Positions 20,206 to 34,295 of a stretch of 34,295 bases of DNA are shown here, in pieces. The stretch covers positions 1 to 34,295 of the forward strand of contig JACDQI010000121.1 in the NCBI GenBank assembly GCA_015657675.1, given 5' to 3'. A model generated the notes under the pieces. It ran no database searches. It worked only from the letters and a program-made list of their open reading frames with translations, and was not told the DNA's origin. Position 1 is the stretch's first letter. Each line of letters starts with the position of its first letter. The stretch comes from Devosia sp. (lineage in GTDB: Bacteria; Pseudomonadota; Alphaproteobacteria; Rhizobiales; Devosiaceae). The translations under genes were made by a program, and so were the position numbers.

Positions 20206-20961
20206 ATGAACCGTATCGAGATCGACAAGCTCACCAAGTTCTACGGCGAGCGCCAGGTGCTGGACCAGATCGACCTGTCGGTGTCGGCGCACGAAGTAGT
20301 GTGCCTGATCGGCGCCTCCGGCTCCGGCAAGTCGACGCTGCTGCGCTGCATCAACGGCCTCACCGAGTTCGACGAGGGCAGTGTTCGCATCGACGGCGTC
20401 GATATCTACGACCCGAGTTTCGGGCGCACCGGCCTCTACAAGAAGGTCGGCATCGTCTTCCAGGCCTATAATCTCTTCCCGACCATGAGCGTGCTGCAGA
20501 ACATCACGCTCGCCCCGATCAAAGTACACGGTCGGCCCCGTGCCGAGGCCGAGGCCGCGGCGATGAAGCTGCTCGGCCTTTTCGGGCTGGAGCAATATGC
20601 GAAATCCTACCCCGAGCAGCTCTCGGGCGGCCAGCAGCAGCGCGTCGCCATTGTCCGCTCGTTGGCGACGGAGCCGGAGGTCGTGCTGCTCGACGAGGTC
20701 ACGGCGGCGCTCGACCCAGAGCTGATCGGCGAAGTGCTCAAGATCATCCGCGACCTCAAGGCGACCGGCATGACCATGGTGATCGTCACCCACGAAATGG
20801 CCTTTGCCCGCGACGTTGCCGACCGCGTCTGCTTCCTCGACAACGGCCGCATCATCGAACAGGGCGAGCCCCGCCGCCTGTTCTCAAATCCGGAAAATCC
20901 TCGCACCCAGAAATTCCTGCAGCGGATCATCGAGTCCGGGCGGCTTGAGGCGAAGGTGTAA
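20206..20961 (+). CDS. Amino-acid ABC transporter ATP-binding protein
   Basis: Walker A GASGSGKST, signature LSGGQQQRVAI, Walker B VVLLDEVTAALDPE. Confidence 0.95.
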   Translation: MNRIEIDKLTKFYGERQVLDQIDLSVSAHEVVCLIGASGSGKSTLLRCINGLTEFDEGSVRIDGVDIYDPSFGRTGLYKKVGIVFQAYNLFPTMSVLQNITLAPIKVHGRPRAEAEAAAMKLLGLFGLEQYAKSYPEQLSGGQQQRVAIVRSLATEPEVVLLDEVTAALDPELIGEVLKIIRDLKATGMTMVIVTHEMAFARDVADRVCFLDNGRIIEQGEPRRLFSNPENPRTQKFLQRIIESGRLEAKV

Positions 20962-21089
20962 GGGGCGCTGGCAATCCGCCCCCAAAACAGCAACGCACAC
21001 AGGGTTTTATCCCGCTCAAGGCCGTCAAGCCAACGGAAGGCGCCACGGAATTAGGGGCTCGGCTGAGAGAGCTAACTGGCTGAGGTTAG

Positions 21090-21138
21090 TGGCGCACCCG
21101 ACAGAATTCGAATCTGTGACCTCTGCCTTCGGAGGGCA
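21090..21138 (-). repeat. Left att copy: 3' fragment of tRNA-Arg(CCG)
   Basis: Reverse complement TGCCCTCCGAAGGCAGAGGTCACAGATTCGAATTCTGTCGGGTGCGCCA. The D-arm side to the right is absent (continues AGGGTTTTGGG), so this is a remnant. Identical 49 bp at 34247-34295. Confidence 0.92.
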
Positions 21139-21252: not shown

Positions 21253-21272
21253 GTGGCTACTGGGTGGCTACT
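21253..21272 (+). repeat. Tandem GTGGCTACT at 11-bp period; candidate integrase arm-type sites (left)
   Basis: GTGGCTACTGG|GTGGCTACT at 21253 and 21264; counterpart GTGGCTGTCAG|GTGGCTGTT at 34161-34180. Confidence 0.5.
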
Positions 21273-21293
21273 TTCACGGCGGGGACAAGAGTG

Positions 21294-22565
21294 ATGGCGA
21301 CGGTAAAGCTGAATAAGCGGACGATCGACGCCTTGCCGGCTGCGGATCATCCAACTTTCTATTTTGACGGCGACCTCAAGGGCTTCGGCCTCAAGGTGAT
21401 GCCTTCGGGAGTGAAGACCTTTATCGTCGAGTATCGGCCCGGAGCAGGGGGGCGAAGCACACCCAAACGCCGCCTTACGCTTGGTCGACTCGGAGCGCTT
21501 ACGCCGGACGAAGCGCGAGAATTGGCCAAAGGCACACTTGGTCGCGTGCACGCCGGCAATGATCCGGCGAGCGATCGCGCCAAAGCGCGCGCCGAGATGA
21601 CCTTTGATAAGGTCTGCGACCTCTACCTAAAGGAGGGGTGCGAGACTAAGAAGGCTAGCACCATCGCCACCGACCGTGGCCGCATCGAGCGACATATCAA
21701 GCCGCTACTCGGCAAGAAGAGGATCGGCGAGATTACCCGGACCGACGTCGAGAAATTCATGCGGGACGTTGCCAACGGCAAGACGGCTGCCGACGAAAAA
21801 ACCAAGCTCCACGGCCGCGCTATCGTCGAGGGCGGCAAGGGCACCGCCACGCGTACGGTCGGGCTGTTGGGTGGGATCATGACGTTCGCTGTCTCTCGCC
21901 AGCTTCGCGCAGACAACCCGGTGCGCGGGGTTAAGCGCTACGCCGACAAGAAGGGCGAGACCTTCCTCTCGGCGTCCGAACTTGGAAAGGTTGGCGCGGC
22001 CCTCACGGCGCTGGAAACTGAAGGCGCCAATCCGTCGGCAGTGGCAATCATCCGGCTGCTGGCTTTCACCGGTGCACGCAAGAGCGAGATTGCCTCGCTG
22101 CGCTGGTCGGAAGTCGATCTTGAACGCGGCTATCTTCGACTGGGCGATTCCAAGACAGGCGCAAAAGTCATCCCAATAGGTGCGCCGGCCTGCGAAGTGC
22201 TGGCAAGCGTTGCGGCGATCGAGGGCAGCGACTTCGTGTTCCCGGCGGCAAGCGGCGATAGTCACTTCCAAGGCGTCGAGAAAGTCTGGCGCAAGGTCCG
22301 GACGGATGCCGGTTTCCCCAGTCTCCGGCTGCACGACCTTCGCCACAGCTTCGCATCGGTCGGGCTGGCGCGTGGCGACGCGCTGCCGGTCATCGGGGCA
22401 ATTCTCGGACATGCGGACGTCAAGACCACTAGTCGCTACGCGCACTTGGCGGATGATCCGGTGAAGGTGGCAGCGGACGGAATTGCTAGGTCGGTTCAGG
22501 CGGCTTTCGGCGGTAATTCGCCGGCGAACATCGTTCCCCTTCGTCGCCCTCAAGGAAAGGCTTAA
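21294..22565 (+). CDS. int: Tyrosine recombinase, P4-like integrase with DUF4102-type N-terminus
   Basis: VKLNKRTIDALPAADHPTFYFDGDLKGFGLKVMPSGVKTFIVEYRPGAGGRSTPKRRLTLGRLGALTPDEAR; catalytic TGARKSEIASLRWSEVDL, LRLHDLRHSFAS, ILGHADVKTTSRYAHL. ATG 21294 preferred over GTG 21264, which sits in the repeat. Confidence 0.95.
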   Translation: MATVKLNKRTIDALPAADHPTFYFDGDLKGFGLKVMPSGVKTFIVEYRPGAGGRSTPKRRLTLGRLGALTPDEARELAKGTLGRVHAGNDPASDRAKARAEMTFDKVCDLYLKEGCETKKASTIATDRGRIERHIKPLLGKKRIGEITRTDVEKFMRDVANGKTAADEKTKLHGRAIVEGGKGTATRTVGLLGGIMTFAVSRQLRADNPVRGVKRYADKKGETFLSASELGKVGAALTALETEGANPSAVAIIRLLAFTGARKSEIASLRWSEVDLERGYLRLGDSKTGAKVIPIGAPACEVLASVAAIEGSDFVFPAASGDSHFQGVEKVWRKVRTDAGFPSLRLHDLRHSFASVGLARGDALPVIGAILGHADVKTTSRYAHLADDPVKVAADGIARSVQAAFGGNSPANIVPLRRPQGKA

Positions 22566-25214
22566 CCTCGAATGGCTTGGTCTATCCGGGCAAATTCCCT
22601 GCTTTCGATCATCAGGAACAGGCCCTTCCCCGCCGATCGGTCGGCCCAAAGGTCGCCGACCAGCCGCTTCTCCTTCGAGTCGTCATTGGTGAAGTAGGGC
22701 GCGCCTTTGTATTCGAGCACCAGCACACGCCCGTCATGCAGAAGCGCGATAAAGTCGGGATAGAACTTGTCCGATGAGGTTTGCAGCCAGAAGGAATGCG
22801 GCTGGCGAGAGGTGTTGCGCACCCAAGCCTTCACGTCCTTGTGGCGTTCCAGATAGACTGCGCAATCGTACTCCTCGCCGCTGGACTCCATGTCACCGAT
22901 GACGCGGAGAGTGCTTCTCGAAGACCGTGGTGCCCTTGTAGGGTTGGTTGTAGCCATAGCGGCTTTCGTCAAAGACCAGCTCCAGGTCCGCACTGGTTTC
23001 AAACTCCAAGCCACTTTGCGGGAACAGTGCCCTCTCAAAGGCGCTGGCCTCACGTGCGTCTCGGTGCCGGGCAATCGTCTTTACCAGCGCCTCGACAAGC
23101 CGGAACTTGGCGCGCGCCAAGCCTTCGATAGCGAGGCCGGACTTGGTCTCGACTGCGTCCAGAGCCTTGGCGATGAACAGCGTTGACGACACGCGCGTAA
23201 TGTCACGGCGCGCCGAGTACGGTATGCGCCGGTCGAGCCAGTTCACCAGCGCATTCTTTGTCCAGCCACGTTCCTGCAGGGCAAGGGAAAGCTGTTCGTG
23301 CAGGTCATTGACAAAGGCTAGGGTTATTGCCCCGGCGGTGTCGACATCGACATGCGCTTCGTCGGCCGCGCGCTTTGGCGGCTCGAAGTAGTCGAGGATA
23401 GGTGCCGGATCCGCGTCCTCTAGCTTCCATGGAATATCGAGGAAGTGGGCGCGGTCGAAGAGCTGAAGGCCGCTCGTCGAGCGCACGCCGAGGCGTGGCA
23501 CCGCAAACCGTATCGGCTCGGCCTCGATCTCTGTCGCCCTCAACCGGGCGCCCGCGACTTGTGCACCAGCGCGTCGACGGCCTTCGCCGCCGCATCGGGC
23601 ATCGCCAGCAACATGGACGTTCGGTCATAGTCGGTGAGTGCGCCACGCGCGCGGAATACTCCGCTGTTTGTATCGACCTCGACGCGTCCACCCGTAGCGG
23701 TTTCGACATTCACTTTGAACGTCTCGGCATCGATCATCCGGGATTGGCTCTTCAAAGAGGAAGGCCCTCCCGCCCTCCTCCATGCCCGGCAGCGAGTCTG
23801 GTGCTAGTCGAACCAGCGCTTTGGCCTCGACCCGCTCAAAGCCGTTGTTCACCAGCCCGTCGCGAAGCGTGTTTGCCGCGCTCTGAAAGCTGGTGGTGGT
23901 GGCAAAGGCATAGGCGCGATTCAGGTCCTCACGCTTCTTGCGTGTGGCGCGGGGAAGACGAAGCACGCGGCCGAGAAGCTGCTCCACCGCACGCGGCGAC
24001 TTCTGCTCCGCCACCGAACAGAGAACATAGGCGAAGGAGCAATCCCAACCCTCGCGTAGCGCCTGTTGCGTGATGATGAAGCGGATTTTGCAGTCCCGGT
24101 CGAAGAGGTCGACGCCATCGATCTCGCGCGCATCGCCGGTCGCCAGTGCAACATGCTCGGCCGGAACGCGGAAGTCCTCGACCAGCATTTTTTTGACCTC
24201 CTCGGCATGCAGCGTCGGCTTATCCTTTGATTTCGGTTCGGCTTGCACGAGCATGACTGGGCGCACGAACTCGCCAGTCTCAGCCTCTTCGGCCGCCGCG
24301 GTGGCTGAAAGTTCGTCGAGCCAGGCAATGGCATCGCCGATCGTCTCGCGTGGTTCGGGCCGGCCGCGAAGGATCACCGGCAACTTGATCATGTCGGCTG
24401 CCTTCAACTCGGCGGCAGACACGTGATGCAGGACGTTGGACGCGAACTTTCCCCTTGCGGGGTCGGCTTCATCGGGCGTGACGGGCGTTGCGGTGAACTC
24501 GACGATCAATGACGGGTCGAGCCTTGCCAGTGTATCGAATGACAGCTCCGTGCGGGCATTGTGCGCTTCGTCGACGATGACCATAGGCCGGTGAAGCCGA
24601 AGGACATTGGCCAGCGACGGCAGCGGGTCGCCCGATGGCCCAGTATCGAGCTTTGTCCGCAAGCCCTCTGCGAGGCCGCTGAAATGATCCATCAGCTCGC
24701 CGTTGGCTTCATAGACTTTCCTACCCTCGGTTTCCTCCACTCGGAAGGCCTGAAGGGTCGCGACGATCACGACGGCTCCGCCGTCATAGTCGGCTCGTTT
24801 GGCATATAGGGCGTCGGCAACACCCATGATTCTCACATTTTCGCCGAACCGATCGGCAAGGGCGCGACGGTTCGGGTTTGCTCGATCGTGCAGGGTGGCC
24901 AGCGTCTGGTCGCGGATCGTCTGCGACGGCACGAGCCACAACACGGTGGGCGCGTCGGTGCGAAGAAAGCTGTCTGCCGCGACGCCGATCGAATGTGCCG
25001 CTAGGATGGTCTTGCCACCGCCAGTGGGAATGCGGAGGCACACATAGGGGAGGCCAGGCAGGCTTGGCGGAGGCGTGAACGGCCTCTTGGTGACCGCATA
25101 GAAGGCCGTGTCGGCATCGCTCAACTCCACCGTCTTTTCGAGGAACTTACGGAGAGCGGCGAGTGTCTGGAGTTGATAGTCCTTCAGCGTGAAGAGTGGC
25201 AGGCTCACGATCAA
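22562..25214 (-). CDS. Type III restriction endonuclease Res-like DEAD/DEAH helicase-nuclease, interrupted by three frameshifts in its 3' third
   Basis: LRIPTGGGKTILA, MVIVDEAHNA, EFTATPVTP, RFIITQQALREGWDCSFAYVL, QLLGRVLRLP; nuclease-like FYPDFIALLHDGRVLVLEYKG in the last segment. Segments: 25214-~23750, ~23750-23540, 23543-~22893, ~22910-22562. Confidence 0.88.
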
Positions 25215-26947
25215 ATCCCCTCGATCTGATAGGGGATCTGCTTGAAAGTCACCCCGAGGCGCGAGAGCCGATCATCGGGCACCGTGCAGCCTTCGGCATA
25301 GACAACGCGTGGGCCGGCAAAGTCCGGCTCGGGCAGAGGCAGGTTTTCGAGCGCGGAGGCCGTGAGCACGTTCCCTGCATTCGTGCTGGCGACGCCAACA
25401 GCTTCTGCCGAGTGAAGCAGATAGATCGCCCTCCCCTGGAAAGTCCCTATTAGAGTAGATGAGCCGTCGGCCCTTCGTGGTATCGGCGAACCGGTCTCAC
25501 AAAAGAAGATATGTGCAGCGAGGTCGGGGTAGAGAACGGCGGGATTTACGCTCCCGTCCGCGTCGAATAGTGGCTCACCGAGGGTACAAAAGCGAAAGCC
25601 CGATCCACCTGTCCAGCCAACCTCGCTGGAAATGCCGCTAGTATCGCTGCCGGTCACCGCTGCGGTTATACGTGGGGCAGTATGCGTGACGGCGTGGTCG
25701 CCCATTTCGACCGTAACGCACTTCCGCCCCATCTTTATCGCCACAGCGGCCGTGGTGCCGGATCCAGCAAAGGAGTCCATCACTACGTCTCCGGTAGAAG
25801 TGGCTAGCTCAAGGCATCGCTTAATCAAGGCCTCAGGCTTTTTCCCCTTCGGAAAATCTACCCCTCCTTCCTTGTGGATGTTGTTGGAGAGGATATCGTC
25901 CCAGAGGGTCGTAAGAGGCTCACCTGAAATGGCCTGACCATCTACGATCTTTATTTTGTCCGAGTAGAAAAGGATGCGCTGGCCATCCTTCAGGTAGATG
26001 TCACTGTAACCTTCCCGCACAACCCTCAGGATCTCGTTGGGCCTTTCTCGGGACTGGTCGATGGCATCGCGGGTATCCTGTCCGACATTAGCGTAGTCCG
26101 GCCGCGCCGGCTGAATGACTGAAGCGGCATTCTGCAGGACGAAATCATCTAGCTCGCCGGGCTCACTCTTCGCTAATTTCCTCGCGTCCTTGAGCGAAAT
26201 TCCTCGGCTTGCCGCAAAACCGCTCATCAGAGTTGTGAACTTCCACTCTGCGAAAGGAGCGTCTCGGTTCTTTATCCAGCCGTTGTAGCGAGTATCTCGC
26301 TCTCGCCCGGTGTAAACCTTGTTCGGTCTCCAAGAGCTCTTTTCTTTCGAATAGACAACAATATTGTTAGCGACGTTGACAAAGCCGGGATTGATAGATT
26401 TGTGTCCTGTAGCTGACGCTTGCTTAAAACAGATCAATCCAACTCGATTTTTTCTGTCAAATATCTCGTCACAGAGCAGTATGCTGTTTCCAATTTCGTT
26501 ATCATCAATATGAAAAAACAAAGTTCCGTCATCGGATAGAAATTGTCGAAGCAGGGCAATGCGGGGGTACATCATGCAAAGCCACTTATCGTGACGCGAA
26601 AGATCCTCCCCCTCCTTTTTTACTACTGTCCCAAGCCACGCGCGGATTTCTGGCGAGTTGACGTTGTCGTTGTAAATCCAATCTTCCGACCCTGTGTTGA
26701 AAGGCGGATCGATATAAATGCACTTCACCTTGCCGGCGTAGTAGGGCAGCAAAGCCTTCAGCGCCCCAAGGTTGTCGCCCTGAACGAGCAGGTTGCCTGC
26801 GTCCGGATCGCCGACGCTCCTGGTCTTGTCACAGTGGATAAGCCGATAGGGCACCTCTCGGTGATGGTTCACCACGGCCTTCTTGCCGATCCAATCCAGT
26901 GTAGGCACCGGTGAGTTCTCCCCCTGTTTGTCTCGCCACGCGGGCAA
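25211..26947 (-). CDS. Type III-like DNA methyltransferase Mod (beta-class N6A/N4C)
   Basis: Motif IV IYIDPPFNTGSEDWIYNDNV, motif I VVMDSFAGSGTTAAVAIKMGRKCVTVE, DGTLFFHIDDNEIGN; ATGA overlap with res. Confidence 0.93.
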   Translation of the reverse strand: MPAWRDKQGENSPVPTLDWIGKKAVVNHHREVPYRLIHCDKTRSVGDPDAGNLLVQGDNLGALKALLPYYAGKVKCIYIDPPFNTGSEDWIYNDNVNSPEIRAWLGTVVKKEGEDLSRHDKWLCMMYPRIALLRQFLSDDGTLFFHIDDNEIGNSILLCDEIFDRKNRVGLICFKQASATGHKSINPGFVNVANNIVVYSKEKSSWRPNKVYTGRERDTRYNGWIKNRDAPFAEWKFTTLMSGFAASRGISLKDARKLAKSEPGELDDFVLQNAASVIQPARPDYANVGQDTRDAIDQSRERPNEILRVVREGYSDIYLKDGQRILFYSDKIKIVDGQAISGEPLTTLWDDILSNNIHKEGGVDFPKGKKPEALIKRCLELATSTGDVVMDSFAGSGTTAAVAIKMGRKCVTVEMGDHAVTHTAPRITAAVTGSDTSGISSEVGWTGGSGFRFCTLGEPLFDADGSVNPAVLYPDLAAHIFFCETGSPIPRRADGSSTLIGTFQGRAIYLLHSAEAVGVASTNAGNVLTASALENLPLPEPDFAGPRVVYAEGCTVPDDRLSRLGVTFKQIPYQIEGI

Positions 26948-26999: not shown

Positions 27000-28352
27000 A
27001 TGGATACCGACAAGGGGCTCTCCCGATCCTGGGCAGAAACGCAGGCTCTGAAAGATGACCTTTTCGAGCGGGCTAAGCTCGGCGAGATCACAGGCGAGGA
27101 AGCCGACGCCGAGGCGATCCGACTACGCCTTGGCAGTCTCTCGCACCGGCCCGGTCCTGACGAGTTTCGTCCCGAGTCCGAGACGCACTGGACGCTACCA
27201 ATGGCGGTGGCCTGGATTGCCTATCTCGACCTCGACTCCGTGCGCGAATGGTCTGCCCCCTATCGCGAAGGCAGTACCTACTGGCTTTGGCGAAAGTGGC
27301 AACTTGGCTTCGATGGCGCGGCCCACGAAGGATGGTTCCTAGAGCAGTTCTCGAAGCCAACTCTTGCGCTGCTCGGGATTGCGTCGGCCTTCGACCGAGC
27401 CGAGGGCGAAAAGCCAATGTCGATGTCCGTTTCCGAAGCCCAGGCCGCGCTTTGGGTGGCGCTGCGCGAGGGCTTCTTTGCCGCGAGTGGCGTGGATGTC
27501 GTGACGGGCCGGCGCGTTGAGATTCGCGCTCTGGACTGGCACGAGCTGGTCCCAGTTCAAGGACATGGCGAGATTGATGAGGTGCGATTCGGCCTGCTCG
27601 GCATCGGTTATCGCGACGTCCTCATCCCTTCGATCGCATTGCGCGGTTTCTGGCATCCACCCAAGTTGGTCCGCCTTGAACTGCCGGACCTCATGCCACC
27701 GACGGGCAATGGCTACATGCCCCTGTTCTGCGCGGCGCAATGGATAGCGACCGAGGGCGGCAAGCGGGACTTCGATCCTGCGGATGTGGAGGTCTGGCGA
27801 CCCGCCTACAACGCCCTACTTTCTGCGATGGCGTCGGAGAAGTTGCGGGTGATCGGGATCAAGGGCGGACAACCCGAGCCGGTGCCGTCTCACCTCTTTG
27901 CAGGGATCGAGGTCGACTACCCCTACGCCGATGAATCTCTCGAGTTGATGCTGTCCGGCAATCTGGTCTTGCGCTGCTATCCTTACGTTGACGACGAGCA
28001 CTGGAGGAAGGGATGGGACGACGCGCTGGTCGATCGCGCGCGCGACCACTGGAAACGGCTGATGGTGGAAAAGGGTGACCTTCGCTCGATTTGGCCATTC
28101 GAGCATGCCGTCGATGTTCTGCCCGATCAGCGCACTGGCATGCCCGGTCGACCATCGAAGGCAAGGCATCTGATCGAGGACGAATTCCATCGTAAGGCTG
28201 AAGCTGGGGAGTTGGCGAACACGCTGACCGACGAAGCCGAAGCGTTGCTGGTCTGGCTCGCGACTGCGCACCCGGCGCTATCTCGACCGACGCAAACCAC
28301 TGTCGAGAACAATATGCGCGCTGACTACCGTCGGTTGAAACCCACGAAATAA
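27000..28352 (+). CDS. Hypothetical 450-aa protein of unknown function
   Basis: Long ORF with island-like composition; C-terminus LTDEAEALLVWLATAHPALSRPTQTTVENNMRADYRRLKPTK; no recognised catalytic motif. Confidence 0.75.
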   Translation: MDTDKGLSRSWAETQALKDDLFERAKLGEITGEEADAEAIRLRLGSLSHRPGPDEFRPESETHWTLPMAVAWIAYLDLDSVREWSAPYREGSTYWLWRKWQLGFDGAAHEGWFLEQFSKPTLALLGIASAFDRAEGEKPMSMSVSEAQAALWVALREGFFAASGVDVVTGRRVEIRALDWHELVPVQGHGEIDEVRFGLLGIGYRDVLIPSIALRGFWHPPKLVRLELPDLMPPTGNGYMPLFCAAQWIATEGGKRDFDPADVEVWRPAYNALLSAMASEKLRVIGIKGGQPEPVPSHLFAGIEVDYPYADESLELMLSGNLVLRCYPYVDDEHWRKGWDDALVDRARDHWKRLMVEKGDLRSIWPFEHAVDVLPDQRTGMPGRPSKARHLIEDEFHRKAEAGELANTLTDEAEALLVWLATAHPALSRPTQTTVENNMRADYRRLKPTK

Positions 28353-28388
28353 TCGTTTCGTGGGAATTTCGTGGCCAATTTTTCATGG
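28341..28388. repeat. Inverted repeat CCCACGAAA-TAATCG-TTTCGTGGG followed by further TTTCGTGG (28367) and TTTCATGG (28381) copies
   Basis: Perfect 9-bp arms 28341-28349 / 28356-28364, plus two direct copies of the right arm. Confidence 0.7.
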
Positions 28389-28452
28389 CCCCCGAGACTG
28401 CCAATTCTCCGTCACCCGCCGGAACACCCGGCCAATTGACAGGAGATTCCAG

Positions 28453-28683
28453 TTGACCTCAACCACTTCCCGCTACCTGCGCCGGTCCACCGCCGCCCAC
28501 TATGTCCGCGAGACCTGGGGACTGCCTTGCTCCTCGAAATGGCTCGCCAAGCTCGCGGTCACCGGCGGCGGCCCGATCTTCCGCAAGGCGGGGCGTTTTC
28601 CGATCTACTTGCCTGCCGACTTAGACCAGTGGGCGGGGTCGAGGATCGGAGAGCCGCAGCGCTCCACCTCGGTCGCGGCATAG
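28453..28683 (+). CDS. Small HTH/AlpA- or excisionase-like DNA-binding protein
   Basis: TTG start with AGGAGA upstream; SRYLRRSTAAHYVRETWGLPCSSKWLAKLAVTGGGPIFRKAGRFPIYLPADLDQWAGSRI. Confidence 0.65.
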   Translation: MTSTTSRYLRRSTAAHYVRETWGLPCSSKWLAKLAVTGGGPIFRKAGRFPIYLPADLDQWAGSRIGEPQRSTSVAA

Positions 28684-28690
28684 GTGCCGT

Positions 28691-29134
28691 ATGGCCAGCC
28701 GCCGCCACAGCCCATGCCGCGCGAAGTCGCTGCACGCCTACACCATCGCCGAGACCGCTGAACTCTATCGGGTGCATCGCAACACAGTTCGTCACTGGCT
28801 TTGCGACGGGCTAAAGCCGCTCGATGGTCGGAAGCCCGTGTTGATCCATGGCACGTCACTCAATGGCTACCATGCCGACCGTCGCGCAACGTCGAAGCGT
28901 CCCTGCGGCCCGGATAAACTCTACTGCCTAGTGTGCCGCGCCCCCCGGCGCCCTGCGCTGGATATAGCGGACTACACGCCACTTACCGAGTCAGTGGGGG
29001 CGCTGGTGGCCATCTGCACGGACTGCGGCGGTGTGATGACCCAGCGCGTCAATGCTGCCCGGCTGAAACTGTTCTCGGCGGAAATCCAGGTGACGATCAG
29101 GCTCGCCTCCGAACCCATAAAGGGGAGTGCCTGA
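28691..29134 (+). CDS. HTH plus zinc-ribbon protein
   Basis: YTIAETAELYRVHRNTVRHWLCDGLKPLDGRKPVLIHGTSLNGYHADRR (MerR-like HTH), then CxxC...CxxC (LYCLVCRAP...AICTDCGGV). Confidence 0.7.
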   Translation: MASRRHSPCRAKSLHAYTIAETAELYRVHRNTVRHWLCDGLKPLDGRKPVLIHGTSLNGYHADRRATSKRPCGPDKLYCLVCRAPRRPALDIADYTPLTESVGALVAICTDCGGVMTQRVNAARLKLFSAEIQVTIRLASEPIKGSA

Positions 29135-29174
29135 TGCCTTTCAAACTGTCACCTCAAAACAAGGATCACCAGAC

Positions 29175-30209
29175 ATGGAATTGAACGCCACCAACGAACG
29201 TCTAAAGCACCGCTACGTCGCCTATCTTCGCGGCGCCCGGCAACTGGGCGAGCACTCAATCGACCAGGTGCTTAAGGCGCTGGATCGGTTCGAGGACTAC
29301 ACTCGACGCAAAAGCTTCAGCGAGTTTCGCATCGAGCAGGCGAGCGGCTTTAGAAAGCACTTGGCCACCGTCAATACCAAGGTCGGCATGCGCCGGGTGA
29401 GTAAGGCGACGATCACGTCGACGCTCTACGCCATGCGCGACTTCATCATTTGGCTCGCCGAGCAGAAGGGGTTTCGCCACCGCCTGGTGAAATCGGATGC
29501 CGACTATTTCAAACCATCTCGACGCGACGAAGCTATCGCACGTGCGCCCCGGCCAATGCTGGTGCCGACGGTCGAGCAGATCGGCACCATGATGTCGGCG
29601 ATGCCGGCGACATCCGCTGTGGAGCGTCGCAACCGCGCGTTGGTGGCTATCACTATCGTGACCGGCGCACGAGACAACGCGACGGCATCGCTGCGTCTCA
29701 AGCACCTCGATCTCGATGATCGACAACTCTTTCAGGATGCGCGGGAAGTCCGGACCAAGTTCGGAAAGACCTTCCCGACGTGGTTCTTCCCCGTCGGTGA
29801 GAATTTCGTCGACGTCATTGCCGACTGGAAACAGGAGCTGAAGCGTGACCATGGGTTCGGACCGGACGATCCTCTCTTTCCCCAGACCGAAGTCAGCTTC
29901 GGCGCCGGTGGCGAAGTGTTACCATCGCGCCTCAAGAAAGAGTGCTGGGCAAATGCCGACCCGATCCGTAAGGTTTTCAAGGCAGCCTGCGTTGCGGCCG
30001 GCCTTCCGGACTTCAAGCCGCACAGCTTCCGTCACGCGCTGGCGCAACTGGGAAGCCACCTTTGCACGACGCCGGCCGAGTACAAGGCGTGGTCTCAAAA
30101 TCTGGGGCATGACGGCGCGCTGGTCACGCTGACCAGCTACGGCACGTTGCCGGGCTACACCCAGCGGGAGTTGATCGCGGGTATCGGGAAGCGAGGGAAG
30201 GCTGCATGA
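29175..30209 (+). CDS. Second tyrosine-type recombinase
   Basis: SAM-like N-domain; catalytic VTGARDNATASLRLKHLDL, KPHSFRHALAQLG, NLGHDGALVTLTSYGTL. ATG 29175 or upstream start 29127. Confidence 0.85.
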   Translation: MELNATNERLKHRYVAYLRGARQLGEHSIDQVLKALDRFEDYTRRKSFSEFRIEQASGFRKHLATVNTKVGMRRVSKATITSTLYAMRDFIIWLAEQKGFRHRLVKSDADYFKPSRRDEAIARAPRPMLVPTVEQIGTMMSAMPATSAVERRNRALVAITIVTGARDNATASLRLKHLDLDDRQLFQDAREVRTKFGKTFPTWFFPVGENFVDVIADWKQELKRDHGFGPDDPLFPQTEVSFGAGGEVLPSRLKKECWANADPIRKVFKAACVAAGLPDFKPHSFRHALAQLGSHLCTTPAEYKAWSQNLGHDGALVTLTSYGTLPGYTQRELIAGIGKRGKAA

Positions 30210-30250: not shown

Positions 30251-30943
30251 CTAGCCTTCTGATCGACGGCGGCGGCGCCATTCCCAAACCACGGCGTTGT
30301 TCTCTTGCACCCAGTCGGCGAGCTTCTCCACCTCGTCGACAGCTGCCATTAGTTTCTCTCGGCTGACCTCGATCTTCAAAGCGTTCCAAGCCAACGCCCC
30401 AGGCTCCACCCGAGAGTCTTCGTCCACGAAGAAGGGGTTTGGATGTTTCTCCAGCGTCTTGCGGTTGTGGCGGGCGTTGAACGAGACAAAGTCGGAGCTG
30501 TGCGCGATGTCGTTGCGTGCTAGAACCACCTGTTCGATCAGGTCGAACCGGACCGGGCAGGTGGCATAGGCGTCGCCCATGATGTGCTCCAGAATCTGCC
30601 GATAGCCCTCAATGAAGCCCTGCCTGAAGTGAGCCTGCCTAGCCTTGTCGTCCTTGAAGGCGAACCCGACGTCGCGCTCGAACTCGGCGAAGTAGAGCTT
30701 CAAGGTGTCTGACAACAGGGAGACGGCAAGCATGCCGACCAGTTCGCGCGTCTGTTCGGCCTGCATCCATTCCCCGAGGAAAGCTGGCTCGGGACTGTCG
30801 TAATCGGGATTGAAGGATAGCGGCCGCCAAGGCGGGACTTCATCCTCTATGTCCTGCTTTAGCTGTTCGAACGGGAGCCGACCTTTGTCATAAAAGAGCC
30901 GGATGATCGCCGTCCGCTCGCGCATGAAATAAGCGAGATCCAT
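30251..30943 (-). CDS. 230-aa HEPN-like protein (candidate ribonuclease/toxin-type effector)
   Basis: Helical protein with LIEQVVLARNDIAHSSDF, an Rx4H motif (R143, H148). Confidence 0.55.
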   Translation of the reverse strand: MDLAYFMRERTAIIRLFYDKGRLPFEQLKQDIEDEVPPWRPLSFNPDYDSPEPAFLGEWMQAEQTRELVGMLAVSLLSDTLKLYFAEFERDVGFAFKDDKARQAHFRQGFIEGYRQILEHIMGDAYATCPVRFDLIEQVVLARNDIAHSSDFVSFNARHNRKTLEKHPNPFFVDEDSRVEPGALAWNALKIEVSREKLMAAVDEVEKLADWVQENNAVVWEWRRRRRSEG

Positions 30944-30973
30944 GAGAATGAGTCCGTAACTTAGGGCAGATGC

Positions 30974-31789
30974 TCAACTTGGCTGACTGGTGGTCGCATC
31001 CGGGGGTGAAAGCGCCCTCCGGTGAGCTTCCCGTTTTGCTGCAAAGACCGCGTCCTGCTCTATAAAGATCATTACCCAGGCTGGCACGATGATGGTCATA
31101 CTCGCTGGGATGTCAGCGGGATATGTCTTGCCGCCCACTAGGACGTTCAGTCGATCTGGAAACTGACCGCTATGGATGCCCAGCCAGTGCGTCCTTTGAA
31201 CCAGGCTCCCGTATCCCGAAAGTGTTTCGTACGCAAAGACTGGCGAGCCCGAAAACCCCGTCCGGGAGCGCATATCCCCCAAATGGGACGGTCGATTTGC
31301 CCCGTTTCCCTGCGAGACCGGTACCCCCGAACTCGCCATCGCGCTGACATTTCCGAACCGTGCCCGCGGAACGTTCGCTCCGGTATCCGGCTCGTTTGCA
31401 AACAATCCGAGCATGAACAAATCGCTGCCGACGTTGATGTTTGAAGGCATGTCTTGGACCATGGATGACAATTCCACGAAGCCAAAGCGATCTAGAGGCG
31501 CGATCAGCTGGCCGGTAATGTCAATCGCAGCGACGTCATCCCCCGTCGGAGCCACTGTCCAATCTTCGCGCCGAACGGGTATTTGATCGCCGGTGGAGAG
31601 ACGAGCTAGCGTCGCGAGATTGATGCAATGCTGACAAGAAACCAAGTAGAAGCTGTTGAACTGATCATCGAGATTTTCTCGGAACCGCACAATGAAGGCG
31701 GTACCAACCGGTTCTATGACCTGACTGTTAGGATTCGGACGAAACAGGATCGCGACGCTGTCTACTAGCTCTTTTGCAATGACGGCCAC
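30974..31789 (-). CDS. Trypsin-like serine protease (chymotrypsin fold)
   Basis: GTAFIVRF, FYLVSCQHCI (His54), TGDDVAAIDI (Asp85), SRTGFSGSPVF (Ser180). Confidence 0.8.
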   Translation of the reverse strand: MAVIAKELVDSVAILFRPNPNSQVIEPVGTAFIVRFRENLDDQFNSFYLVSCQHCINLATLARLSTGDQIPVRREDWTVAPTGDDVAAIDITGQLIAPLDRFGFVELSSMVQDMPSNINVGSDLFMLGLFANEPDTGANVPRARFGNVSAMASSGVPVSQGNGANRPSHLGDMRSRTGFSGSPVFAYETLSGYGSLVQRTHWLGIHSGQFPDRLNVLVGGKTYPADIPASMTIIVPAWVMIFIEQDAVFAAKREAHRRALSPPDATTSQPS

Positions 31790-31954
31790 CGTCGACTCCC
31801 GAGCGCATGGAACCTGCCTTGCACGCCTAACTGCGGCAGCGACCCGCGAGCGGTCAAGTGTTCGACGGGCGGCACTAGCCGCGGCGAGGGCGAAGCAGAA
31901 GGCCTAGAGCTAGACCTCCAGCCTTTACCGCCCCAGTCCCATTGGCAATCAGCG

Positions 31955-34132
31955 GTGGAACTCCCTATTACTTGGCGTTCCAATCGCCTTACATTCAGTG
32001 ACCTCATGTCGACACTTCAGAGTGCCTTTCCGCATCTATTCGAACTCAACTCAGAGACAGTCGACTGGAAGGCGCCATTCTCTTGGTCGGCTCCCGACCT
32101 TGACCTCCTAGAGGCGATCTGGGCGGTGCAACATATGCGTATGGCTCATCTACCTGACTTCTGGTCTTGGACAGAAGCTATGGTGGGCGACCTCGCAAAT
32201 GCACGCCATGGCGCAACCAGCCGAGAGGCCGACTCGATTGACTGCGTGAGGTTTATCAGTTGCATGCCGGCGACCCATGTCACCAGGTCCGGGGGTCAAA
32301 TGGGGGCGTGCTTTGATTGGATATGGACAGCCGTCGCTTCGACCCATGTTCGAGGCCAACGTGTCAACGCTAATACCTACAGCTTCGCGGTGTTCCCTGA
32401 GGCACCGCCTGTCTTGTTCGATATGTACCTGAGATATGTGCCGAAATTCGCGGCTGCATGTTTCTACGTTGCGTACAAATTTGGCGGCCTAGATACTCTT
32501 TCAGCGGAAGTAGCACCGGTCTGCTGGCGTGTTGCTTCAACGTTTTTTCACAGCGACGCCAGTGACCATGACGCGCTCGAAGCTATGACGCAGATGGTGA
32601 TATGGGCGGCGCATAGAGACTGGCTCGAAGGCAAGTCGTGGGCAGACGAACTGCTGGCCGCTGCCGAACGGACATACTCACCTCGGCAGCGCTTTGAAGT
32701 CGCGATGACATTCATAACTCCCGCAAACCGCTACGTGGATGGCACCCCTCAGGAATGGGCCCACAAAATTCTGCGCGACCATAGTTCTGATATGGTTGAG
32801 CACGAGCGGCTTCAGGTGTTTGCGGTGGCCCTTGAAGGGCCAGAGCACTGGCAAGCTAGCAAGGCAGAAATTCTGGCTGAGATCGGTTGTCTCCGAGCCC
32901 ATTACCTCGCTGACTTGCGAGCCGGTGAATCGGACCTCGAAGTAATGGAGTTGCGAGTCTCCATCATTCATCCCTTGATCTTCGTTCTCGTCAACTGGGG
33001 AGAGATAGACGACCTGATCGCGGTCCTGGGAGCATGGTACCGCGCAGGTGGTGCCGCGCCGGCAGACGCAAACGTCTTAGCTGTAGTGCCAACTCATGGC
33101 GGGGGTGCCGCGTACCTTTGGCCAGGTGGCCGTTGGCTCACCGGAACGGGCGATACTGCCACGCACGATGCCGTTCAACGGGCAGCAGGTGTGGCGCTTG
33201 GATCGTACTTTCGCGGCTCAGATGGCGACCATGCGGCAGACGCCTACGAAGAGATGCGTTTCGATGTTGCCGACGTCGCGGCAGGGCCAGTCTTAGAAGC
33301 GGCTATGGCAGCCCACTACCGTTTCGACGAACTCAGACTGCAGCTCCACGACGGCTGGAAGCCGCGGGCAATACTGATGTTCCCGAGCGGGCCAGAGCCT
33401 TTGCAGGCCATGTTGCGAAAGTCTGGAGCAGTCGCCGCCCCACTGGAGATAAGTTTCCAGCGCGCCCAGCCGCCGCGGCCGATCCGGCGGATATCAGTTT
33501 GGGCGGGAGGCCCGATGCACGAGACGTTCGAGATTGATGCCTTGCGGCACGTAGCGGATCGATCAGGTTGGTCGGTGGAGGTCTACGGGTCAGCTGACGC
33601 TACGCGCCAGGACTTGCGACGATTCTATGAGGACCAAGATGCTGACGTCGTTTGGGTAATTTCGCACGGTACCCATGATCCTTTCACTGCTGGGGGGACA
33701 GGCCTACATCTCCCCGATGGGACGCTAGTCGATTTCGACGAGGTCCGCAGTTGGACGGTACCAGATTTGGGCCGTCGCCTTCTAGTTCTCAACAGCTGCA
33801 GCGGCGCGACTGCACAGGGGCGGGGCGGGCTTGCCCGGATTGGCTTGGCCCAGTCTCTCGTGTCCGGCGGCCAGGCAGTGATTGGACATTTGTGGCCGGT
33901 GCACTGGACTACGGGACTAGCCTACGGCGCTGCTCTAGCAACTTGCTTGGAAACGACATCGACGGAGGCGGCTGCCTTAATGGCGTCAGAGCTGCTTGGT
34001 GAACCACAACGACTCTTGCCCTTCCTGGAAGAGCGATTCCAATCGTGCGAAGAGCTGCTGGATCGTTTGCGCCGGTCCGGCGAGGACTTGACCAGCATCA
34101 CTAACTGGGGCTGCCCGGTCTTGCTCACTTAG
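31955..34132 (+). CDS. Large helical protein with C-terminal CHAT (caspase-like) protease domain
   Basis: C-terminal ADVVWVISHGTHDPFTAGGTGLHLPDG...LGRRLLVLNSCSGA...LAQSLVSGGQAVIGHLWPV; His571 (33665-33667) and Cys615 (33797-33799). GTG start; frame open upstream. Confidence 0.88.
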   Translation: MELPITWRSNRLTFSDLMSTLQSAFPHLFELNSETVDWKAPFSWSAPDLDLLEAIWAVQHMRMAHLPDFWSWTEAMVGDLANARHGATSREADSIDCVRFISCMPATHVTRSGGQMGACFDWIWTAVASTHVRGQRVNANTYSFAVFPEAPPVLFDMYLRYVPKFAAACFYVAYKFGGLDTLSAEVAPVCWRVASTFFHSDASDHDALEAMTQMVIWAAHRDWLEGKSWADELLAAAERTYSPRQRFEVAMTFITPANRYVDGTPQEWAHKILRDHSSDMVEHERLQVFAVALEGPEHWQASKAEILAEIGCLRAHYLADLRAGESDLEVMELRVSIIHPLIFVLVNWGEIDDLIAVLGAWYRAGGAAPADANVLAVVPTHGGGAAYLWPGGRWLTGTGDTATHDAVQRAAGVALGSYFRGSDGDHAADAYEEMRFDVADVAAGPVLEAAMAAHYRFDELRLQLHDGWKPRAILMFPSGPEPLQAMLRKSGAVAAPLEISFQRAQPPRPIRRISVWAGGPMHETFEIDALRHVADRSGWSVEVYGSADATRQDLRRFYEDQDADVVWVISHGTHDPFTAGGTGLHLPDGTLVDFDEVRSWTVPDLGRRLLVLNSCSGATAQGRGGLARIGLAQSLVSGGQAVIGHLWPVHWTTGLAYGAALATCLETTSTEAAALMASELLGEPQRLLPFLEERFQSCEELLDRLRRSGEDLTSITNWGCPVLLT

Positions 34133-34180: not shown

Positions 34181-34246
34181 GGCATCAACGACGAGGCCGA
34201 TCGGACCTTGTTCTCGAAAATTATGCTTGTAAAACCAATGAGTTAT

Positions 34247-34295
34247 TGGCGCACCCGACAGAATTCGAATCTGTGACCTCTGCCTTCGGAGGGCA
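34247..34295 (-). tRNA. tRNA-Arg(CCG), 3' part (right att copy; 5' half beyond window end)
   Basis: Minus strand: TGCC-CTCCGAA-GGCA anticodon arm (CCG), ACAGA-TTCGAAT-TCTGT T-arm, acceptor CGGGTGC, G, CCA. Confidence 0.88.

Follow-up and report, generated by a model that had tools for sequence, protein, structure and literature searches.

A divergent Borvo gene and its neighbours on an integrative element of Devosia sp.

Borvo is a CHAT-protease defence system described by Millman et al. 2022 (as cited in PMC10952713). Mutations in the DNA polymerase let phages escape it (PMC11348598), a 'Borvo-like' version with two BovA proteins protects Streptococcus thermophilus (PMC12322248), and the mode of action of the system has been entered as unknown (PMC12322248). 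Here, we analysed a 34,295-nt stretch of DNA from Devosia sp. (hereafter, the window), close to the right end of which lie three contiguous genes encoding a 230-aa protein, a trypsin-like protease and a CHAT protease. Their coordinates and strands (Table 1) agree with those of the initial annotation, which had proposed that the three form a new defence system. The Borvo defence itself is already known. The CHAT gene of the window resembles the described system in that it encodes one large protein whose C-terminal part is a CHAT protease, matches the family profile over its full length, retains the conserved His and Cys, and resides on a mobile element; it differs in that it is divergent in sequence, comes from a different bacterium, has unrelated neighbour genes, and is a putative rather than an established phage-protection gene.

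Table 1. Coordinates of the features discussed, in positions of the window
Feature	Coordinates	Strand	Basis
Left end repeat of the integrative element	21085..21138		54-bp direct repeat
Tyrosine integrase of the element	21264..22565	+	Pfam Phage_integrase (4.9e-22), Arm-DNA-bind_3
Rx4H protein, possible HEPN-type RNase, 230 aa	30251..30943	-	phrog_28203, invariant Rx4H
Trypsin-like serine protease, 271 aa, triad H54/D85/S180	30974..31789	-	Trypsin_2 below cut-off; triad invariant; relatives match PDC-S45
Spacer between the divergent protease genes	31790..32005 (to 31954 if GTG 31955 starts bovA)		ORF coordinates
bovA (Borvo), CHAT caspase-like protease, 725 aa as called	31955..34132	+	PADLOC BovA, Pfam CHAT, invariant dyad H571/C615
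Right end repeat of the element	34242..34295		54-bp direct repeat; last base is the contig end

The CHAT protease gene and its Borvo relatives

The CHAT protein matches the PADLOC BovA profile from end to end (positions 1-711 of 711; 604.5 bits; E = 1.1e-181), and also matches the Pfam CHAT profile (PF12770; E = 1.4e-11). As the former match covers the full profile and extends far beyond the CHAT domain alone, the gene is, judged by its sequence, a member of Borvo (bovA), and the earlier statement that the region matches no named system was wrong in its case. Across four aligned BovA-type proteins, two of which are only 20-27% identical, H571 and C615 do not vary. This invariant His/Cys dyad, the PF12770 match and the BovA membership bear out the proposed caspase-like CHAT protein, and an anti-phage effector is what the gene very likely encodes. 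The AlphaFold model of BovA, built on an alignment of two sequences, has a pLDDT of 44, and its best structural matches are not significant; in this low-confidence model, the protein is all-helical to residue 364, after which H571 and C615 are found at strand ends. The predicted secondary structure is thus consistent with the sensor role that had been suggested for the long helical N-terminus.

Because the BovA profile match begins at residue 18 of the CHAT protein as called, translation of bovA probably starts at ATG 32006 rather than at GTG 31955. The two protease genes are indeed divergent, but with this start the spacer between them is likely about 216 bp long, as opposed to the 165 bp initially reported. 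A simple scan of the spacer for sigma-70-type promoters yielded no match beyond chance.

The PADLOC BovA profile is also matched in a Rhizobiales genome (L002), on an IncP plasmid (L011), in Streptomyces (L032) and in Priestia (L033). The closest of these relatives, L002, is 63% identical to the window protein and matches the profile equally well (591.8 bits); its neighbours are a DUF3800 gene and an integrase gene, with neither a trypsin nor an Rx4H gene within about 6 kb on each side. Three of the six BovA-type loci are partial or broken, with the matched ORF lacking the N-terminus in L011, the gene split in L012, and a remnant left in L013. No other full-length BovA relative was found in 385 genomes of the class and 398 of the phylum; their rarity among the genomes sampled leaves one close relative only for comparison. 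Matches in six genomes of the class cover the CHAT part only and were left out of the BovA relatives, and neither single-sequence nor alignment scans detected BovA on viral contigs. Judged by this gene context, in which the relatives occur without the window's neighbours, BovA appears to operate as a single gene.

The initial annotation had drawn an analogy to TPR-CHAT/Csx29 of type III-E CRISPR and to gasdermin-protease loci, which likewise use a CHAT or trypsin-like protease as an effector. When the larger genes of the element were scanned with Pfam and PADLOC profiles, no gRAMP, CRISPR or gasdermin genes emerged, and the only family of direct repeats of at least 20 nt between positions 20700 and 34295 is the pair of end repeats. 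The scanned genes thus give no indication of a type III-E CRISPR or gasdermin-protease locus, and the previously noted absence of gasdermin, gRAMP and STAND proteins holds for the scanned proteins of the element. Effector-associated-domain conflict systems were considered as well, because they combine trypsin- and caspase-type effectors (PMC8195603), but no STAND or MoxR-type core was present among the proteins scanned for Pfam and PADLOC families.

The trypsin-like and Rx4H genes

The trypsin-like protein matches Pfam Trypsin_2 just under the cut-off of 27.6 bits (25.5 bits; E = 2.5e-5). The catalytic triad named in the initial annotation is real, as H54, D85 and S180, together with the GFSGSPVF motif, are conserved in eight aligned proteins, the relatives being 23-43% identical. 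PDB sequence searches were uninformative except for weak matches of the trypsin profile to DO-type proteases. The relatives are scattered over two plasmids, five other genomes among the 385 of the class, and eight viral contigs; a search of the order added three trypsin-bearing genomes among 199, two of them weak matches. On the viral contigs, scans with alignments recovered these eight trypsin loci and one Rx4H locus, while single-sequence scans recovered none. Two of the trypsin relatives match the PADLOC candidate PDC-S45 across the greater part of the protein (E = 1.8e-13 and 3.4e-11), whereas the window's own protein does so weakly and locally (5.8e-5, residues 165-208). We know of no established function for PDC-S45.

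At three loci (L028, L043 and L047), the trypsin-family gene is adjoined by an IS1595/ISXO2-type transposase, which suggests that these genes travel as passengers. What lies downstream of the trypsin relatives varies, and is mostly unrelated or phage genes. In L027 (7851-9330), the trypsin-family gene is followed 1 bp on by an AbiV-type HEPN gene (3.6e-22). On an Agrobacterium pusense plasmid (L009, 8001-11101), it is followed by a gene for a protein combining TIR and response-regulator domains, beyond which a sub-threshold HEPN_RiboL-PSP match (1e-4) is located on the other strand.

In the window, the trypsin-like gene is followed, after a 30-bp gap, by the co-directional gene for the 230-aa protein, which matches phrog_28203 (4.3e-45). 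Its Rx4H motif, R143-N-D-I-A-H148, is invariant in six sequences (the window protein and five relatives, 31-43% identical) and is, therefore, no chance string. Relatives come from six plasmid records, of which we examined four, and from one viral contig. The protein has no Pfam HEPN match, and its AlphaFold model is helical, with a pLDDT of 55 and no fold match. The alignments behind this model and that of BovA comprised only two sequences each, and both models are too poor to assess the folds. The label 'HEPN-like' draws on the conserved motif and the predicted helices, and neither a Pfam profile nor a fold match backs the name. From its sequence features, we regard the protein as a possible HEPN-type RNase.

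The element and the association of the three genes

The three genes sit at the right end of an element bounded by the 54-bp direct repeats (98% identical, one mismatch), the 48-bp core of which is present in two copies only genome-wide. We read these repeats as the 3′ portion of a minus-strand gene for tRNA-Arg(CCG). The integration into a tRNA gene that had been claimed thus finds real end repeats, but no complete tRNA gene in the window; location of the 5′ part of the tRNA beyond the contig end would account for its absence. The left repeat is adjoined by an arm-binding tyrosine integrase, and the GC content is mostly 0.62-0.68 in the left flank versus 0.55-0.63 within the element.

Each fetched locus was translated in six frames and searched with profiles of the three families. 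This covered 29 independent loci (6 BovA, 18 trypsin and 5 Rx4H), with flanks of several kb for most of them and short ones for some viral contigs (L038-L040), where a few associations could be missed. Co-occurrence of the homologues had been set beforehand as the test of the proposed three-gene system, and not one of the 29 loci contains two of the three families. The claim of a new CHAT-trypsin-HEPN system, or cascade, is consequently unsupported in these loci. As no loci are shared outside the window and L002 carries neither partner, the trio is most simply explained as neighbouring cargo.

Most likely, the region is an ordinary stretch of mobile-element defence cargo with no new three-gene system, and we are fairly confident that it consists chiefly of a stand-alone bovA, with the trypsin-like and Rx4H genes as independent cargo. 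We observed that the gene belongs to the BovA family, retains the catalytic dyad, has a mobile setting and lacks conserved partners; the mobile setting of the trio comprises the integrase, the end repeats and the lower GC, and some trypsin relatives lie beside phage genes. A point against this reading is that the divergent protease genes could share regulation. Its consequence is that a divergent Borvo gene is placed on an integrative element, next to genes that only appear to form a system with it, and that a new protease cascade is not wrongly claimed.

A competing explanation, which we consider unlikely, is that the Rx4H protein (possibly a HEPN RNase) is a toxin regulated by the trypsin-like protease, the two forming a module independent of Borvo, which would be just a neighbour. 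The closely spaced, co-directional genes, the L027 and L009 arrangements, and the similarity of trypsin relatives to a PADLOC candidate defence family argue for it, but a HEPN neighbour is absent from most of the 18 trypsin loci, and the Rx4H relatives have no trypsin partner. In L027, as in the window, an Rx4H-type or HEPN protein is encoded directly downstream of the same protease family; the window's protein, however, has no profile similarity to AbiV, and hhalign detects no relationship between the two partner families (probability about 1%). With this single analogue, the pair is a weak lead. A more general form, in which the two genes would be one version of a protease-controlled RNase defence module, built from a trypsin-like protease and a swappable effector (HEPN, AbiV or TIR) and separate from Borvo, we hold to be likewise improbable; if true, the succession of trypsin-like genes and HEPN or TIR effectors would matter, provided that a larger survey confirmed it. 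Very improbable is a three-gene cascade, in which BovA and the trypsin-like protease would activate each other and release or destroy a HEPN-like protein that kills the cell, for although the genes are adjacent and divergently arranged and all catalytic residues are intact and conserved, two of the families meet in no locus except the window, and the closest BovA relative is devoid of both partners.

If bovA stands alone beside independent cargo, as we favour, BovA would stay idle until it senses phage replication, probably via its N-terminal helical part, with phage DNA polymerase as the trigger suggested by the published Borvo work. Going by the same work, its CHAT protease might then cleave some protein and thereby stop the infected cell. 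BovA would need neither the trypsin-like gene nor the Rx4H gene, and these two may share a transcript.

Besides the trio, a type III restriction-modification system is present on the 13-kb element. Its res gene (22562-25214, minus strand) is broken: it is split into three frames matching successive parts (2-483, 625-767 and 784-876) of one 898-position profile, and either is a pseudogene or contains sequencing errors, while the mod gene (25211-26947) is open. A further block on the plus strand of the element (27000-30209) comprises a gene for a 450-aa protein that matches no family, a pair of small genes, one of which encodes a helix-turn-helix, and the gene for a second, XerC-like recombinase.
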